From Labilithrix sp. (GTDB lineage: Bacteria > Myxococcota_A > Polyangia > Polyangiales > Polyangiaceae), in the NCBI GenBank assembly GCA_019637225.1, contig JAHBWC010000008.1, positions 62,001 to 126,000 on the forward strand: a stretch of DNA of 64,000 nucleotides, read 5' to 3'. Shown here piece by piece: positions 50,616 through 57,214 of this stretch. Position 1 is the stretch's first letter. Every line of letters starts with the position of its first letter. A program made the position numbers and the translations under genes. The notes beneath the pieces are model-generated. The model was given only the letters and a program-made list of their open reading frames with translations, was not told where the DNA came from and did no database searches.

Positions 50616-50972
50616 ATGAAGACCGTCGCCTCGATGATCGCGCTCGCGGGCCTGGGGCTCGTTGTCGCGTGCGGCAGCAGCTTCCAGCCGCCCACCGATC
50701 GCCTCGCCGCGTCCGAAGCCGCCATCCGCAGCGCGCGTGAGCTCGGCGCCGAGCACAACCCGCAGGCCGCGCTCCACGTGAAGCTCGCAGACGAGCAGGT
50801 CGCTTCCGCGCGCACGTTGATGAGGGACGGCGACAACGAGCGCGCCGACATCGTCCTGCAACGCGCCAAGTCCGACGCCGAGCTCGCGGTCATGCTCACG
50901 CGCGAGCAGGCCGCGAAGACGAGCGCCGATCAGGCCCGGAAGAACCTCGACGACCACAAGGCGGGAAAGTGA
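50616..50972 (+). CDS. DUF4398-type small lipoprotein
   Basis: This 118-residue lipoprotein begins MKTVASMIALAGLG with lipobox LVVACGS. The mature helical domain, about residues 24-105, contains ASEAAIRSARELGAEHNPQ and the matching KLADEQVASARTLMRDGDN, the two-helix pattern of DUF4398 proteins. These are typically paired with OmpA-like lipoproteins in the same operon, as here. The ATG at 50616 is set by a GGAGG five bases upstream; two earlier ATG codons are less well placed. Its stop lies eight bases before the next ATG. Confidence 0.85.
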   Translation: MKTVASMIALAGLGLVVACGSSFQPPTDRLAASEAAIRSARELGAEHNPQAALHVKLADEQVASARTLMRDGDNERADIVLQRAKSDAELAVMLTREQAAKTSADQARKNLDDHKAGK

Positions 50973-50980
50973 GGACGACG

Positions 50981-51916
50981 ATGCGTAGCCAGAACACCAC
51001 CAAGGTCCTCCTCGGCAGCGTCATCGCGTTCGCCCTCGGCGCCATCGCGTGCGGTCCCACGCTCCCGCCGAAGGAGCTCGTCGACGCGCGCAGCGCCTAC
51101 ACGCAGAGCGCGAACGGTCCGGCGGCGGCCGAGACGCCCGCGCAGGTCCACACCGCGAAGACCGCGCTCGACCAGGCGGAGCAGGCGTTCGCGGACGACG
51201 GCGACAAGCCTCACGTGCGCGACCAGGCGTACATCGCGCTCCGCAAGGCGCAGCTCGCGGACGCGAGCGCACAGCTCCAGATCGCGCAGAAGGCGAAGGC
51301 CACGGCGGACCGGGAGGCCCAGGCGCTGCAGGCGGACATGCTCGCGCAGACCCGAACCGACCTCGCGAGCAGCCAGCAGAACCTCTCGAAGACGCAGGAG
51401 CAGCTCGACGCCGAGAAGAAGGCGCGCGCGGAGGCGGAGCGGAAGCACGCGCAGGCGATGAGCGATCTCCAGAAGATCGCGAGCGTCAAGCAAGAGACCC
51501 GCGGGATGGTCATCACGCTCTCGGGCTCGGTCCTCTTCAAGACGAACGAGTCGACGCTCCTCCCCGCCGCCGTCGTGAAGCTGAACGAGGTCGCCGAAGC
51601 GCTCGTCAAGGGCAACCCCGACGCCGACATCACGGTCGAGGGGCACACCGACTCGCAGGGTGCGCGCGACTACAACGTCCAGCTCGGTCAGCGCCGCGCC
51701 GAAGCGGTCAAGGCGCAGCTCGTCGCGCACGGCGTCGCGAGCGACCGGATCAAGGCGATGGGCGTCGGCCCCGATCGCCCCCTCGCCGACAACAAGTCGG
51801 CCGAGGGCCGAGCCAACAACCGCCGCGTCGAGATCATCGTGGACGGCGCGCGAGGCGCGGCGGGGGCTCCTGGGACCCCGGTAGACGCGCCGGCGAGCAC
51901 GACGCCGCGCCGCTGA
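50981..51916 (+). CDS. OmpA-family lipoprotein with DUF4398 domain
   Basis: This 311-residue lipoprotein has lipobox GAIACGP (Cys24), an N-terminal DUF4398-like helical part (about 30-110), a coiled coil rich in Gln, Lys and Ala (about 110-180), and a C-terminal OmpA domain (about 190-295). The OmpA peptidoglycan-binding motifs are ITVEGHTDSQGARDYN and RRAEAVKAQL. A final Ala/Pro tail follows. It tethers the outer membrane to the cell wall. The ATG at 50981 has GAGG six bases before it; a GTG at 50969 would overlap the DUF4398 stop. Probably co-transcribed with that gene. Confidence 0.88.
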   Translation: MRSQNTTKVLLGSVIAFALGAIACGPTLPPKELVDARSAYTQSANGPAAAETPAQVHTAKTALDQAEQAFADDGDKPHVRDQAYIALRKAQLADASAQLQIAQKAKATADREAQALQADMLAQTRTDLASSQQNLSKTQEQLDAEKKARAEAERKHAQAMSDLQKIASVKQETRGMVITLSGSVLFKTNESTLLPAAVVKLNEVAEALVKGNPDADITVEGHTDSQGARDYNVQLGQRRAEAVKAQLVAHGVASDRIKAMGVGPDRPLADNKSAEGRANNRRVEIIVDGARGAAGAPGTPVDAPASTTPRR

Positions 51917-52149: not shown

Positions 52150-53823
52150 ATGGCTGGTCAGGACGGAGGAGCGGGTCGGGTCGAGCGGAAGGGCTCGCGC
52201 GATCCTCTCGTGGGGACCGTCATCAACGGCAAGTTCCGCGTCGATCGGGCGATCGCGCGCGGCGGCATGGGGCGCATCTACTACGGCACGCAGGCGCCGC
52301 TCGATCGTCCGGTCGCGCTCAAGATCGTCAAGGCCGACTCGGTGAACGAAGAGGAGTCGCAGTTTCTCAAGCGATTCCTCCTCGAGGCGAGCATCCTCGC
52401 GAAGCTCCAGCACCCGAACGTCGTGACGCTCTTCGACTACGGGCGCATCGAGGGCGCTTCCGTCGAGATGTACTTCATCGCGATGGAGTACCTGGACGGC
52501 GAGACGCTCACCGAGCGGCTCCGCACTCGGGGAGCGCTGCCCACGTTCGAGGCGCTCGCGCTCTTCCGGCAGATCGGGCGCGGGCTCCGCGAGGCGCACA
52601 TGCGCGGGATCGTGCACCGCGATCTCAAGCCTTCGAACATCGTCATCGTGCCCGAGGCCGACGGCGAGATCGTCAAGCTGGTGGACTTCGGCATCGGCAA
52701 GGACGAGCGCGGCGGCGAGGATCTCACGCGCGACGGCGTGCTCGTCGGTACGCCGAAGTACATGGCGCCGGAGCAGTTCGACGGAGCATCGTCCTCCGCG
52801 AGCGACGTCTACGCGCTCGGAATCATCGTCTACCAGCTGCTCACCGGCTCGCTCCCCTTCGCAGGGAGCTCGATGGCGGACTTCATGATCGCGAAGCTCC
52901 AGCACGCGGTCCCGCCGATGCGCGAGGTGAATCCGATCTGCGACGTCACCGAGAGCCTCGAGTCGCTCGTCTACCGGATGCTCGCGCGCCATCCTCAGGA
53001 GCGACCGACGCTCGACGAGGTCTTCGCCCAGCTCGCGCACTGCGAGGAGGAGATCTACGGCTCGTCGGGCGCGCGCCTCGCGCTCACGGGGCACCTGGGC
53101 TTCGCGACGAGCTCGCGTCCGCTCTCCATCGGCGGGCTGCCGGTCTCGCACACCGTCATCGCCCCACAGCCCGCGCTCCACACGCCGCGACCCGCCGGGG
53201 GAAACACGACCTCGGGACCGCCGATCACGGTGCTCACGCCTCGCCCGATGGCAACCTCGGCGCGGCCGGAGACGGCGGGCCGCGCCAGCTTCCCCGTCGC
53301 CGCGCTCGTCGCGCTCCTCCTCATGCTCACGTCGGCGGGGGCGGCGGGTCTCTGGTTCGCGAAGACCCATCTCTTCGCCAAGGACGACGTCCCGGCGGAT
53401 CCGACCCAAGCCGCGTCGGCCACGTCGTCCGCGGCGGCGGCCTCCGCGACGGCGACGGCGACGGCCGCGCCCACGTCCTTCGTCCTCCACCTCGACTCGA
53501 CGCCATCCGGCGCGACGGTCCTCGAAGACGGCAAGGTCCTCGGCGAGACCCCGCTCGACGTCCCGATCGACCGGTCGAGCGTCGCGAACGGCGCGGCGCG
53601 CGGCTTCCAGCTGAAGATGGCCGGCTACACGACCACGGCGTTCGCGCAGGGCTCGTCGGAGGCCGACGTCGCGCACACCGTGCCGCTTGCGCCGGAGACC
53701 GCGCGCACCGTAAAGTCGGGTCCCTCGCACGCGTCGGGCGGCAGCAAGTCGCCGGCGAACGGCGGCGGAAAGGGGCCCTCCACCGGGCCCACCGGCGAGT
53801 CGGACATTCGGCTGAAGAGATGA
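52150..53823 (+). CDS. Transmembrane Ser/Thr protein kinase with periplasmic PEGA domain
   Basis: This 557-residue Hanks-type kinase has its catalytic domain at about 28-300. The ATP loop is IARGGMGRIYYG, the lysine is Lys58 in ALKIV, the catalytic loop is HRDLKPSN (Asp158), the metal site is DFG at 179-181 and the activation segment ends GTPKYMAPEQ. A Pro/Thr-rich linker leads to one membrane segment around FPVAALVALLLMLTSAGAAG (about 380-402). The C-terminal part carries a PEGA domain in the periplasm, with LHLDSTPSGATVLEDGKVLG. GAGAGG lies six bases before the ATG at 52150. Its last codons overlap the start of the TonB receptor gene (ATGA). It may sense that receptor. Confidence 0.9.
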   Translation: MAGQDGGAGRVERKGSRDPLVGTVINGKFRVDRAIARGGMGRIYYGTQAPLDRPVALKIVKADSVNEEESQFLKRFLLEASILAKLQHPNVVTLFDYGRIEGASVEMYFIAMEYLDGETLTERLRTRGALPTFEALALFRQIGRGLREAHMRGIVHRDLKPSNIVIVPEADGEIVKLVDFGIGKDERGGEDLTRDGVLVGTPKYMAPEQFDGASSSASDVYALGIIVYQLLTGSLPFAGSSMADFMIAKLQHAVPPMREVNPICDVTESLESLVYRMLARHPQERPTLDEVFAQLAHCEEEIYGSSGARLALTGHLGFATSSRPLSIGGLPVSHTVIAPQPALHTPRPAGGNTTSGPPITVLTPRPMATSARPETAGRASFPVAALVALLLMLTSAGAAGLWFAKTHLFAKDDVPADPTQAASATSSAAAASATATATAAPTSFVLHLDSTPSGATVLEDGKVLGETPLDVPIDRSSVANGAARGFQLKMAGYTTTAFAQGSSEADVAHTVPLAPETARTVKSGPSHASGGSKSPANGGGKGPSTGPTGESDIRLKR

Positions 53824-56774
53824 CCCTATCGACCTCGAGGAGCCGCTCTAACCTCGCGCTCCTCCTCGTCGTCGCGCTCTTCACGACGATCATGGCTCCC
53901 GGCGTGGCGCGCGCGGACGACGTCGCCGACGAGGCCGATCACCTCTTCACGCTCGGCGCGGAGCACTACCAGTCGAAGGACTACAAGAGCGCGCTCCAGT
54001 ACTTCCTGGCCTCGAACCGCCTCGTTCGAAACCGCAACGTGATGTACAACATCGCGCGGACGTACGAGCACCTCCAGCAGCCGTCCGACGCGTACCGCTA
54101 CTACCAGCGCGCGCTCGAGGGCGAGACCGACAACGCGGTCAAGCAGCGCATCAAGGACTCGATGCAGCGGCTCGGATCGAGCGTCGCGCTGCTCAAGGTC
54201 GAAACCGAGCCTCCCGGCGCCACGCTCTACTTGAGCCGCAAGGACCTCGGCGAGCGCGGAACGGCACCGCAGACGATCGCGCTGACGCCCGGCTCCTACA
54301 CGGTCATCGCCGAGCTCGCCGGCTACGACGACGCGACGTCGAAGGCCGTCGACGTGCGCATCGGCCGGGAGACCGCGATCACGCTGAAGCTCACGCGCGT
54401 CGTCGGGACCCTCCGCGTCATCGGCGCGAAGGGAGCCACGGTCCGCCTCGACGCCGACGACGGGCCCGTGCTCTGCGAAGCGCCGTGCGACGCGCCCGCG
54501 CCTCCGGGGCAGCACGTGCTCATCCTGTCGAAGCCGGGCTTCCGCACGACCCGGCAGAACGTCCAGGTCCGCGCCAACAAGGTCACCGAGGTCACGCCCG
54601 AGATCGAGGCCGAGACCGGCTCGCTCGTCGTGAACGCCGACGAGCGCGACGCCGTGATCGAGATCGACGGCAAGACGATGGGCTTCACGCCGTCGGTGCT
54701 CACCGTCCCCGTCGGCCCCCACGACGTCCGCGTGACGTTGCGGGGCTTCCGCCCCGTCGAGCGCAAGATCGACGTGAGCGCGAACGCCCAGACCGAGCTC
54801 GACCTCCAGCTCGTCAGCGCCGAGGCCGTCGAGGCCGCGTCGCGTGTCTCGGAGCCGATCGAGGACGCGCCCGCGTCCGTCTCGCTCGTCACGAGCCCCG
54901 AGCTCCGCGCGATGCGCTACCCGACCGTCGCCGAGGCCGTGCGTGGCGTCCGCGGTCTCTTCGTCTCGGACGACACCGCCTACAAGACGATCGGCTTTCG
55001 CGGCTTCGGTCGACCCGGCGACTACGGCAACCGCGTCCTCGTCCTCATCGACGGCCATCCGGCCAACGACAACTGGCTCTGGTCCGCGTACACGGGCTAC
55101 GACCTCCGCGCCGACATCGAGGACGTCGAGCGCATCGAGGTCGTGCGCGGCCCCGGATCGGTCCTCTACGGTACCGGCGCGTTCTCGGGCGTCATCAACC
55201 TCATCTCCCACACGCGCGACACCCCCGACGGGCGCGAGGTCGGCGTCTCCGCCGTCGGCGACGGCGTGATGCGCACCCGCGCGCGGCTCACGCACCACTG
55301 GTCGCGCGACGCCGGGGTCACCACCTCGATCGCCCTCGCGAAGGGCGCCGGCCGCGACTTCTTCATCCGCGAGTACGTCCCGGACGGTCCCCCGTCCGTC
55401 GCCGGTCACTCGCGCGGCCTCGACGGCTTCCGCGTCGGCACCTGGAGCGGGCGCGTCTTCTACAAGGCGCTCTCCGCCCAGTGGAGCGTCAACCACCACG
55501 ACAAGGGCATGCCCGCGGGGCAGTTCGACACGCTCTACGGCGACGAGCGGACCCACCAGGCCGATACGCGCGCGTTCGTCGAGGTGAAGCTCGACCCGAA
55601 GCTGAGCGAGCAGGTCACCAGCGTGACCCGCGTTCACGCCAACGCGTTCCTCTACCGCGGGATCTTCGCGCGCTCGCCCGCCGGCGGCGGCATGGAGCGC
55701 AGCACGTACGACGGCGCCTGGGTGGGCGGAGAGCAGCGGCTCATCTACTCGCCGCTCGAGCAGCTCCGCATCACCGGCGGCGGCGAGTTCCAGTACCACG
55801 CGCTCGTCCACCAGCAGGGGTCCGACCAGGTCAACGGGACGTTCTACGACGACAAGGACCCGTTCACCCTCGCCGCCGGTTACGCGCTCGCGGACGTCTC
55901 CCCCACCCGCTCCGTCAAGCTCACCGGCGGCGCGCGCCTCGACTCGTACTCGTTCGCCGACGCGTCGGTGAACCCGCGCCTCGCCGCGATCTTCAAGCCC
56001 TACGCCGGCGGCAACCTCAAGGTGATGGCCGGCAAGGCGTTCCGCGCGCCGAGCGTCTACGAGCTCTACAACAAGGCCGGCGGCGGCCAGCAGCAGAACA
56101 CGAACCTCCGCCCCGAGAACCTCTACTCGGGTGAGGTCGAGTACAGCCACCGCTTCTCGCCGACGGTCATCGCCTCGGCGACCGCGTACGCGAACTACAT
56201 CACGGACCTCATCGCGCTGCGCGATCTCCCCGACGCGACGCCGACGAACCCTTTGTACGCGTACCAGAACACCCGCGCCCCCGTCGGGACGCTGGGGGCC
56301 GAGCTCGAGCTCCGCCGCGAGTGGAAGGAGGGCTGGATGCTCGGCGGCTCGTACTCGTTCCAGAAGAGCCGCTACCTCGCGTCCGACTCGCTCGGCGACT
56401 TCTTCGCGTTCGAGCAGGCCGCGGACCTCCGCGAGGTGCCGAACTCGCCGAACCACCTCGCCTCGCTGAAGGGCGGCGTGCCGATCCTCTCGCGCGCGCT
56501 CATGCTGATGAGCCGCCTCACGTTCGAGGGGCCGCGCTTCGATCGCAACGACACCGAGGGCCCCGGCGAGCCGGCGCAGCGCGCGACGTCGAGCGCCGTC
56601 CTCTGGGACCTCGTCTTCTCGGGCTCCGAGGCGCGCTGGGGGCTGTCCTACGGCGTCGGCGTCTACAACGCGTTCGACGCCCGCTGGCGCGTCCCGGTCA
56701 GCGCCGAGTTCCGGCCCACCACCATGGTGCAGAGCGGCCGCACGCTGCTCGCCTACGCGGCGGTCACGTTCTGA
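53820..56774 (+). CDS. TonB-dependent receptor with N-terminal TPR and PEGA domains
   Basis: This 984-residue outer-membrane protein has a signal peptide (about 1-32, ending GVARADD), a TPR helical part (about 36-110) and three PEGA units (about 120-198, 199-268 and 269-338). These units include EPPGATLYLSRKDLGERG, GQHVLILSKPGFRTTRQN and VIEIDGKTMGFTPSVL. A TonB plug follows (about 345-465), with RIEVVRGPGSVLYGTGAFSG, then a barrel ending in Phe. The three PEGA domains mirror the PEGA of the adjacent kinase. Its ATG at 53820 overlaps the kinase stop (ATGA). The ligand is not known, and no clear TonB box was found. Confidence 0.88.
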   Translation: MTLSTSRSRSNLALLLVVALFTTIMAPGVARADDVADEADHLFTLGAEHYQSKDYKSALQYFLASNRLVRNRNVMYNIARTYEHLQQPSDAYRYYQRALEGETDNAVKQRIKDSMQRLGSSVALLKVETEPPGATLYLSRKDLGERGTAPQTIALTPGSYTVIAELAGYDDATSKAVDVRIGRETAITLKLTRVVGTLRVIGAKGATVRLDADDGPVLCEAPCDAPAPPGQHVLILSKPGFRTTRQNVQVRANKVTEVTPEIEAETGSLVVNADERDAVIEIDGKTMGFTPSVLTVPVGPHDVRVTLRGFRPVERKIDVSANAQTELDLQLVSAEAVEAASRVSEPIEDAPASVSLVTSPELRAMRYPTVAEAVRGVRGLFVSDDTAYKTIGFRGFGRPGDYGNRVLVLIDGHPANDNWLWSAYTGYDLRADIEDVERIEVVRGPGSVLYGTGAFSGVINLISHTRDTPDGREVGVSAVGDGVMRTRARLTHHWSRDAGVTTSIALAKGAGRDFFIREYVPDGPPSVAGHSRGLDGFRVGTWSGRVFYKALSAQWSVNHHDKGMPAGQFDTLYGDERTHQADTRAFVEVKLDPKLSEQVTSVTRVHANAFLYRGIFARSPAGGGMERSTYDGAWVGGEQRLIYSPLEQLRITGGGEFQYHALVHQQGSDQVNGTFYDDKDPFTLAAGYALADVSPTRSVKLTGGARLDSYSFADASVNPRLAAIFKPYAGGNLKVMAGKAFRAPSVYELYNKAGGGQQQNTNLRPENLYSGEVEYSHRFSPTVIASATAYANYITDLIALRDLPDATPTNPLYAYQNTRAPVGTLGAELELRREWKEGWMLGGSYSFQKSRYLASDSLGDFFAFEQAADLREVPNSPNHLASLKGGVPILSRALMLMSRLTFEGPRFDRNDTEGPGEPAQRATSSAVLWDLVFSGSEARWGLSYGVGVYNAFDARWRVPVSAEFRPTTMVQSGRTLLAYAAVTF

Positions 56775-56776
56775 TC

Positions 56777-57214
56777 ATGAAGCGCGCGCCTCGCCTCCCC
56801 GGCCCCGCGCTCCGCCGCGCCGCGCTCGGCGCGCTGACGCTGGCGCTCGTCGCGGCCGCCGCGTGCGAGGGCGCAGGCTCGTACGTCTTCACGGCGCAGA
56901 GGTTCGACGCGAGCGCGGCGTGCCTCGAGCCGTACCGCGCGGTCGAGGTCGTCGAGGGACCGGGCGTCGCCGCGACCTGTCCGGCGAGCTGCCTGACGGT
57001 GGGCGCCGAGGTCTTCGTCACGACGATGTGCCCGCCGCTGCCGACGATCGCGACGGAGCTCGCGGAGGGTGACGAGGCGTGCGTCGCCGCGCGCGCCGCG
57101 CTCGGGACGACCTGCGGGGAGGAGCCGGCGACCGCCACGGACGGCTCGGCTCCGGACGGCTCGGGTCCGAGCGACCTCGACGCGAACGCGGAAGACGCCG
57201 GCGACGGCGCGTGA
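56777..57214 (+). CDS. Small Cys-rich lipoprotein following the TonB receptor
   Basis: This 145-residue protein starts two bases after the TonB receptor stop, so it is in the same operon. It has a signal with lipobox AAAACEGA, a compact domain (about 25-115) with nine cysteines, for example AACLEPYRAVEVVEG, TCPASCLTVG and MCPPLP, and an acidic/Pro/Gly tail. It may sit at the membrane with the receptor as an accessory. No family is recognised. Confidence 0.75.
   Translation: MKRAPRLPGPALRRAALGALTLALVAAAACEGAGSYVFTAQRFDASAACLEPYRAVEVVEGPGVAATCPASCLTVGAEVFVTTMCPPLPTIATELAEGDEACVAARAALGTTCGEEPATATDGSAPDGSGPSDLDANAEDAGDGA

Follow-up and report, generated by a model that had tools for sequence, protein, structure and literature searches.

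In the 64,000-nucleotide stretch of Labilithrix sp. DNA analysed here (contig JAHBWC010000008.1 of assembly GCA_019637225.1, positions 62,001 to 126,000 of the forward strand; hereafter the window), the gene for a transmembrane Ser/Thr kinase is directly followed by the gene for a TonB-dependent receptor of the outer membrane. Both genes probably encode one envelope-spanning signalling unit, in which the TPR part of the receptor would capture a short C-terminal tag of the kinase across the periplasm, thereby setting the state of the kinase. The kinase (557 amino acids; 52150-53823, plus strand, as are all features of the pair) contains a protein kinase domain at residues 30-293 (52237-53028; PF00069, E-value 2.7e-50), and the catalytic motifs HRD, DFG and APE can be read from its sequence; it is, by its domain and motifs, a Hanks-type Ser/Thr kinase. 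A single transmembrane helix is predicted by hydropathy at about residues 383-401 (53296-53352) and is followed by a periplasmic C-terminal tail. The tail carries the core of a PEGA domain (53482-53568), which is a weak Pfam match with an E-value of 0.0021 and 18.4 bits when the whole protein is scanned (below the cut-off of 20.8), and of 0.0003 and 21.1 bits when the tail is scanned alone (above the same cut-off). A Pro/Gly/Ser-rich linker leads to the tag ESDIRLKR at the very end of the kinase (53797-53820), and the kinase stop codon overlaps the receptor start codon in the sequence ATGA (53820-53823).

The receptor (984 amino acids; 53820-56774) starts with a periplasmic extension, which consists of the TPR part (about residues 32-120; 53913-54179; TPR_2, E-value 1e-6, and a profile match to solved TPR structures) and three PEGA domains (54192-54398, 54429-54608 and 54618-54818, with E-values of 1.6e-8, 6e-9 and 9e-14). 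In the scan of the whole protein, the PEGA match covers three stretches with an E-value of 9e-34. The extension is followed by a plug (residues 347-458; 54858-55193; PF07715, E-value 3e-20) and a beta-barrel (Pfam match to residues 537-950, extended to the end of the protein; 55428-56771; PF00593, E-value 8e-25). With a plug plus a TonB-type beta-barrel, the protein is by predicted domains a TonB-dependent receptor, and the predicted model of a relative (L187) has many long strands beyond the plug; any TonB box should lie between the third PEGA domain and the plug. Against NCBIfam, the barrel scores best with haem, siderophore and other receptor models, in all cases far below cut-off. Among the named genomes, the nearest receptor is 92% identical and belongs to Labilithrix sp. 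ACE_MYX5. The open reading frames and Pfam matches bear out the first-pass annotation of this DNA, which had described the ATGA overlap and the TPR part plus three PEGA domains in front of the plug.

A survey of relatives for adjacent pairs, which is the conservation half of the test that annotation had set for chance adjacency, found the pair to be conserved. A search with the receptor in 58 genomes, its own included, gave a match at an E-value of 1e-20 in 39 of them; many of the matches are full-length, and some genomes contain paralogues. Forty receptor loci were fetched, and a scan of named genomes contributed 80 more. In 32 of the 40 loci, tblastn placed a kinase gene on the same strand directly upstream of the receptor gene. 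The remaining eight comprise four loci in which the contig stops within 640 bp (L034, L053, L054 and L068), one whose adjacent upstream kinase belongs to another kinase subfamily (L062) and three without an adjacent kinase (L057, L058 and L060), the last four assigned by reading. Under a uniform rule, a receptor was considered to have room if more than 1.3 kb precede the start of homology, and a same-strand kinase was counted if it ends at most 1.5 kb before this start. The TPR-PEGA extension is carried by 75 distinct receptors, 66 of which have room, and 54 of these 66 have an upstream kinase on the same strand, compared to none of the 30 receptors without extension (32 such entries had room; L197 and L223 were excluded as frameshifted second halves of extended receptors). 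Adjacent pairs were found even where receptor identity falls to 33% (L199) and are present in Labilithrix, Polyangiaceae, Sorangium, Polyangium and other myxobacteria. Judged from gene order and homology, the kinase and the receptor are a real, conserved two-gene unit. The four-base overlap itself is not a general rule among the pairs: it occurs in 6 of 32, the gap is at most 10 bp in 20 (overlaps included) and larger than 100 bp in five, counts which rest on start codons chosen by script. One locus of the survey, L178 (CAMAWH010000006.1), is titled as a metagenome-assembled genome of Klebsiella pneumoniae, has a myxobacterial-type pair and is probably misassigned in its title. Another locus contains a receptor paralogue of 626 amino acids (L061:6659-8536, from G006:C15), which has the TPR start and lacks about query residues 87-427, and with them the PEGA domains and a large portion of the plug; the kinase upstream of it retains the tag.

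The tails of the partner kinases vary greatly; their ends are alike, as in ESDIRLKR, LDIRMTR, PLEIKMER, ENEIRHER and LGIKTGR. Of 55 distinct partner kinases, including one from M. xanthus, 54 end with Arg, and position -5 is occupied by Ile in 49, Leu in four, and Phe and Tyr in one each. A basic residue, Arg or Lys, stands at position -4 in 45 of the 55, and an acidic one, Asp or Glu, at position -6 in 39; the commonest residues read D-I-R-L-E-R, and the general form is D-I-R-x-x-R. The residues in front of the tag (-40 to -9) consist of 24% Pro and 16% Ala. The catalytic motifs HRD, DFG-type, Lys and APE were each found in 54 or 55 of the 55 kinases, and hydropathy predicts one transmembrane helix in 53 and two in the other two. 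A strict form of the tag, [ILF][RKHYNQ]xxR at the exact C-terminus, is present in 50 of the 54 adjacent kinases, and a loose form, [ILF]xxxR, in 53, the ends matched by the loose form only being DIIPKR, DITFDR and DIILNR. Unpaired kinases carry the strict form in two and the loose form in three of 81 cases (Fisher p 1e-29 and 1e-32, respectively, uncorrected for relatedness). These 81 kinases are a non-random sample from the genome of the window, genome G047 and M. xanthus, composed of closed, distinct frames among the best-scoring candidates and of ten loci near PEGA proteins.

It had been proposed in the first-pass annotation, which did not mention the tag, that the receptor signals to the kinase through the PEGA fold that both proteins share. 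The pair is conserved; the shared PEGA fold as its point of contact was not supported. Contact through shared PEGA domains, with the tag as a secondary element, would fit the window, where both proteins carry PEGA, and the 16 of 30 partner-kinase tails that contain a recognizable PEGA domain. However, no PEGA match at an E-value of 0.01 was found in the other 14 tails, at least 13 of which retain the tag (L196 is the only one of the 30 without it). Furthermore, PEGA is a common fold with 39 matches in the genome of the window, and because of this frequency, sharing it says little by itself. The structure models described below do not bear on such a contact. We consider this route of contact improbable, and PEGA-PEGA contact was set aside as a general link. 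The C-terminal kinase tag rather than PEGA is, at the level of sequence, the common element of the pairs.

A conserved end of an upstream gene could also be a by-product of translational coupling, if the ribosome-binding site or the start codon of the receptor gene lay within the last kinase codons, and the overlapping and closely spaced pairs counted above would agree with this. The tag is, however, retained at gaps of 104-241 bp (L037, L045, L051, L056 and L059) and at a distance of about 1 kb in L185, and in L167 it stands upstream of a second kinase and not of the receptor. In addition, Myxococcus/Corallococcus-type loci have a receptor without adjacent kinase (seven of the 66), and a PEGA-type kinase of M. 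xanthus, which is located on a contig other than that of the receptor, ends with GGGLGIKTGR. This kinase is 50-51% identical to the kinases of L185 and L188, both of which end with LGIKTGR and lie about 1.1 kb and 0.1 kb, respectively, before the start of receptor homology. A narrower pattern with Asp or Glu before the Ile gave nine matches in M. xanthus, none of them at a kinase end; the pattern was widened after GIKTGR had been seen in L185 and L188, and the kinase was found among the roughly 100 of 374 matches listed. For Sorangium So ce26, the same type of search went through about 50 listed matches to the pattern, out of 554 in total, and scored 150 candidate kinases out of 386. Of the receptors without an adjacent same-strand kinase, those of M. 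xanthus and L060 have a tagged kinase elsewhere. Since the M. xanthus kinase keeps the tag without being linked to the receptor gene, the tag is not a by-product of the start of a downstream gene; a coupling origin is contradicted and hardly credible, and an artefact of the ribosome-binding site was rejected because of the long gaps and this unlinked kinase.

The tag also persists across kinase lineages. In a tree of 110 kinase domains, which classed as unpaired both the kinase of the window and four additional tagged kinases close to receptors, 13 changes between the paired and the unpaired state are needed, at least nine of which are forced by supported branches. Three of these four additional kinases are the second ones at L037, L043 and L045; the fourth, at L060, lies on the opposite strand. 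A second tree of 104 domains contains nine changes, at least five of them forced by well-supported branches. A single clade of partner kinases was rejected by the approximately unbiased (AU) test, with a loss in log-likelihood of 351 and a p-AU of 7e-47. Because the partner kinases are polyphyletic, the kinase has been replaced more than once while the tag persisted; as read from these trees, the tag follows the receptor and not the kinase lineage. In L167:94-3702 (the same locus as L045), two consecutive kinases with the ends DSDIRRSR and ETEIRRER precede one receptor. It could be argued that the operon serves common expression only and that the kinase senses something else without touching the receptor: operon neighbours need not interact, and kinases are abundant, with at least 152 matches in the genome of the window (150 of 224 candidates scored). 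That the lineage of the kinase changed repeatedly and the tag stayed is, however, hard to explain without contact, and receptors that lack the extension are unpaired, which makes mere co-expression very unlikely.

TPR-PEGA proteins without a barrel provide a comparison. A kinase lies alongside them in 12 of 14 loci, and the two others, L076 and L077, have less than 0.7 kb upstream. The kinases beside these proteins end with PALAPR (three), PTLAPR, EPLVPR and PQLADH, or with PIKTGL, PIKTGM, PMKTEL, THKMTF, DITIQP and VDRQFD. In L072, L073, L075 and L078, the LAPR kinases (LADH in L073) neighbour one TPR-PEGA protein or two, which in some cases are encoded on the opposite strand; at its C-terminus, the partner in L072 has two predicted transmembrane helices. 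Kinases in the genome of the window that are followed by a TPR-PEGA-like gene end with LDMGIK, DTKIKN, GLQDNR and others, of which GLQDNR happens to match the strict tag form. It is mainly because the class of the tag tracks the TPR partner that the TPR is named as the reader of the tag.

TPR domains bind other proteins by their C-termini. The receptor TPR matches the profiles of CTPR390 (E-value 1.2e-8) and of TPR2A of HOP (E-value 0.0013), and the Foldseek matches of the predicted model include 3kd7 and 3fp4; according to the title of 3kd7, CTPR390 was solved with an Hsp90 peptide. By profile or fold, HOP TPR2A, CTPR390 and Tom71 are of the same TPR family as the receptor TPR. Residues S65, R67, N71 and N77 of the receptor are invariant in 29 sequences. 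The Asn of the M. xanthus receptor equivalent to N77 aligns with an Asn of designed consensus TPRs, and the corresponding position in HOP is presumably one of the clamp residues. In eight partners that were read, this TPR Asn (as in VLFN) is common to all, and the residues before it are S[NYH]R in the TonB class and, by eye, EQR or AAR in two LAPR-class partners. The receptor of L196 has SHR in its TPR, and the others in alignment A2 have SNR or SYR. Known HOP ligands end with EEVD, whereas the tag of the window kinase ends with Arg, so that the chemistry of binding would differ. Contact between the tag and the TPR is a well-motivated inference.

The proposed mechanism assigns a part to each segment of the two proteins. 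As the sequences show, the TonB receptor of the outer membrane carries its TPR and three PEGA domains on the periplasmic side, and the periplasmic part of the inner-membrane kinase is a Pro-rich tether, often with one PEGA domain, that ends exactly in the tag. The tag would act as a docking peptide read by the TPR. Ligand binding or TonB-driven transport may alter how the extension presents its TPR, so that the tag docks or comes free and the receptor holds or frees the kinase through its tether. The tethered kinase would thereby change its oligomeric state or pairing, its stability and its cytoplasmic activity. A signalling role of the pair is likely.

Several observations weigh against capture of the tag by the receptor. 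The first-pass annotation had suggested predicting a complex of the two proteins; in single-chain AlphaFold2 models of an in-frame read-through of the kinase tail, signal peptide and receptor of L187, no interface was seen. The shorter model is confident for the kinase PEGA domain, five TPR helices and the three receptor PEGA domains, and 353 of 468 residues have a predicted local distance difference test (pLDDT) score of at least 90. The tag (residues 130-136), however, is undocked with a pLDDT below 50 in both the short and the whole-receptor fusion; these makeshift fusions have no free C-terminus, retain the signal peptide and were built from few paired rows (seven and six), and are a weak test of docking. 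The controls without extension come mostly from other phyla, in which kinases may be fewer, and 12 of the 66 extended receptors have no adjacent same-strand kinase, namely L057, L058, L060, L180, L192 (Sorangium So ce26) and the seven Myxococcus/Corallococcus-type loci. The adjacent kinase of L196 (2270-3937) is the only one without the tag and ends with DDLYACPK. Opposite-strand kinases in the fetched stretches are untagged in L199 (DEWRVH), L052 (KKKDEM) and L064 (KDTIGF), the latter two having TPR-PEGA-like genes of their own. A receptor with TPR only in the genome of the window (L302) has no kinase within 4.6 kb upstream. 

Nearer controls for the adjacency count are six barrel-only homologues of the same family or order (L085-L090), among which only L090 has an upstream kinase, and its receptor proved to have an N-terminal TPR without PEGA. 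For 19 other plug proteins of the genome of the window, no kinase was found within 1.5 kb around the plug, which is a short reach. Wider stretches were fetched for three of them, L302 (described above), L303 and L304, and that of L304 contained no kinase. In L303 (G000:C52:2000-10968), a kinase gene whose product ends with KLDRSEVF converges tail to tail on the gene for a TonB-plug protein on the other strand.

The undocked tag would also agree with a reader other than the receptor. The tag might be recognized by a third envelope part that such kinases share, for which a chaperone, a protease or the TonB/ExbD machine would be examples, or it might shield the tail from proteolysis; the receptor would then only be co-expressed. 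Degradation and quality-control signals are in general short, basic and located at the exact end of a protein, and the tag has all of these properties. On the other hand, the tag class varies with the neighbouring TPR protein, the tag follows the receptor across kinase lineages, and 79 of 81 sampled unpaired kinases are without the strict tag, all of which speaks against such a reader. We regard a third reader as rather unlikely, and capture by the receptor TPR as the preferred explanation.

The different kinase ends raise the tentative idea, to which we give slightly less than even chances, of a periplasmic address code in myxobacteria. Transmembrane kinases would carry exact C-terminal tags on Pro-rich tethers, each class being read by the TPR of a matching partner, and kinase domains would be swapped behind a conserved tag. 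The partners may be a TonB receptor, a small outer-membrane barrel or a membrane-anchored TPR-PEGA protein, and the putative classes are D-I-R-x-x-R for the TonB receptor, LAPR, IKTGL/M and perhaps DGFKGxY, VFE and DPY. In L090:4266-8659 (G021), a TonB receptor with TPR only follows a kinase ending with QVDGFKGAY. The genome of the window contains a similar TPR-only receptor without adjacent kinase (L302:2084-4582) and, on another contig, a kinase ending with PDGFKGQPY (L147:1791-3521), which is the nearest relative of the L090 kinase in the tree. DGFKG ends and TPR-only receptors are possibly a second class of TonB receptor-kinase pairs with its own tag. Unpaired transmembrane kinases of different genomes (L110, L280, L109, L286, L254 and L249) share the ends SNYGVFE and PDISVFE or have DPY or SPY ends (DDPYAH, KDDPY, RDPYERFD and YRDSPY); these VFE and DPY/SPY ends may be further tag classes.

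Two bases past the receptor stop codon starts a gene for a small Cys-rich exported protein of 145 amino acids (56777-57214, plus strand). The position had been given correctly in the first-pass annotation, and its designation as a lipoprotein is probable, with seven Cys residues and a weak lipobox, AAAC, both assigned by eye. No Pfam model at an E-value of 0.1 and no NCBIfam model at 0.001 matched it. A tblastn search of 40 loci placed a relative near the receptor in seven, each of them from the genus of the window, and the protein was dropped as a member of the unit since it is a genus-level neighbour only. Just upstream of the kinase, an OmpA-family protein with a DUF4398 domain is encoded (50969-51916); among the 40 loci, L031 and L061 alone have a close relative of it upstream of the pair. 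An endonuclease III-type protein is encoded downstream of the unit according to Pfam. No third conserved neighbour family of the pair was detected in 38 loci; the largest neighbour cluster, with members in 15 of the 38, and a few that follow it were discarded as reverse-strand shadows of kinase genes, as judged by eye from strand and position.

In systems of the FecA-FecR-FecI and FpvA type, a TonB receptor that is extended at its N-terminus by a periplasmic domain signals to an inner-membrane protein that is encoded nearby. The pair of the window likewise combines an extended TonB receptor with a nearby-encoded inner-membrane partner and may be the analogue, with a kinase, of surface signalling by FecA-FecR. 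However, the receptor extension consists of TPR and PEGA, with no STN domain among the Pfam matches up to an E-value of 0.1, the partner is a Ser/Thr kinase and not an anti-sigma factor, and the link seems to be the C-terminal tag; no Pfam match to a FecR anti-sigma or ECF sigma factor was found among the five window neighbours scanned. Like PknB and Stk1 of the PASTA type, the window kinase is a transmembrane Hanks kinase with a C-terminal extracytoplasmic part, but PASTA is not among its Pfam matches, and it reaches only 249.6 bits with the NCBIfam model PknB_PASTA, for which the cut-off is 450. Another likeness is to PpkA, which is also a transmembrane Ser/Thr kinase and interacts through its periplasmic part with a protein of the periplasm: in the part of the source considered here, RtkS of Serratia is described as binding the periplasmic domain of PpkA and as required for its stability, and TagR of Pseudomonas as a probable activator of PpkA (PMC6082577). 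These partners set a precedent for the control of a transmembrane Ser/Thr kinase by periplasmic proteins; as far as that part of the source goes, RtkS and TagR differ in that they are not receptors, serve type VI secretion and involve no TonB receptor (PMC6082577). The RtkS-PpkA structure (9k1u) is a weak fold match to the L187 model, at rank 24. In searches of the open-access literature of PubMed Central, no kinase-TonB receptor pair of this form was found, in line with the first-pass annotation, which had known of none.

We know of no signal that has been assigned to most myxobacterial Ser/Thr kinases, of which 104 matches were found in M. xanthus. The kinase sets of M. xanthus and Sorangium cellulosum were the highest among the genomes then analysed, according to the portion of the source consulted (PMC2887360). 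The receptor-kinase pair with its tag offers a concrete input for one class of these kinases, and the C-terminal tag a simple rule by which further kinases could be matched to their sensors. The kinase and the receptor of M. xanthus make the pairing testable in a species that is harmless and genetically tractable. If the address code is true, receptor inputs could be rewired to new kinase outputs. If the proposed unit is true, signalling by an outer-membrane receptor would end in protein phosphorylation rather than in a sigma factor, which suggests a so far undescribed route for cell-surface signals into the cell.

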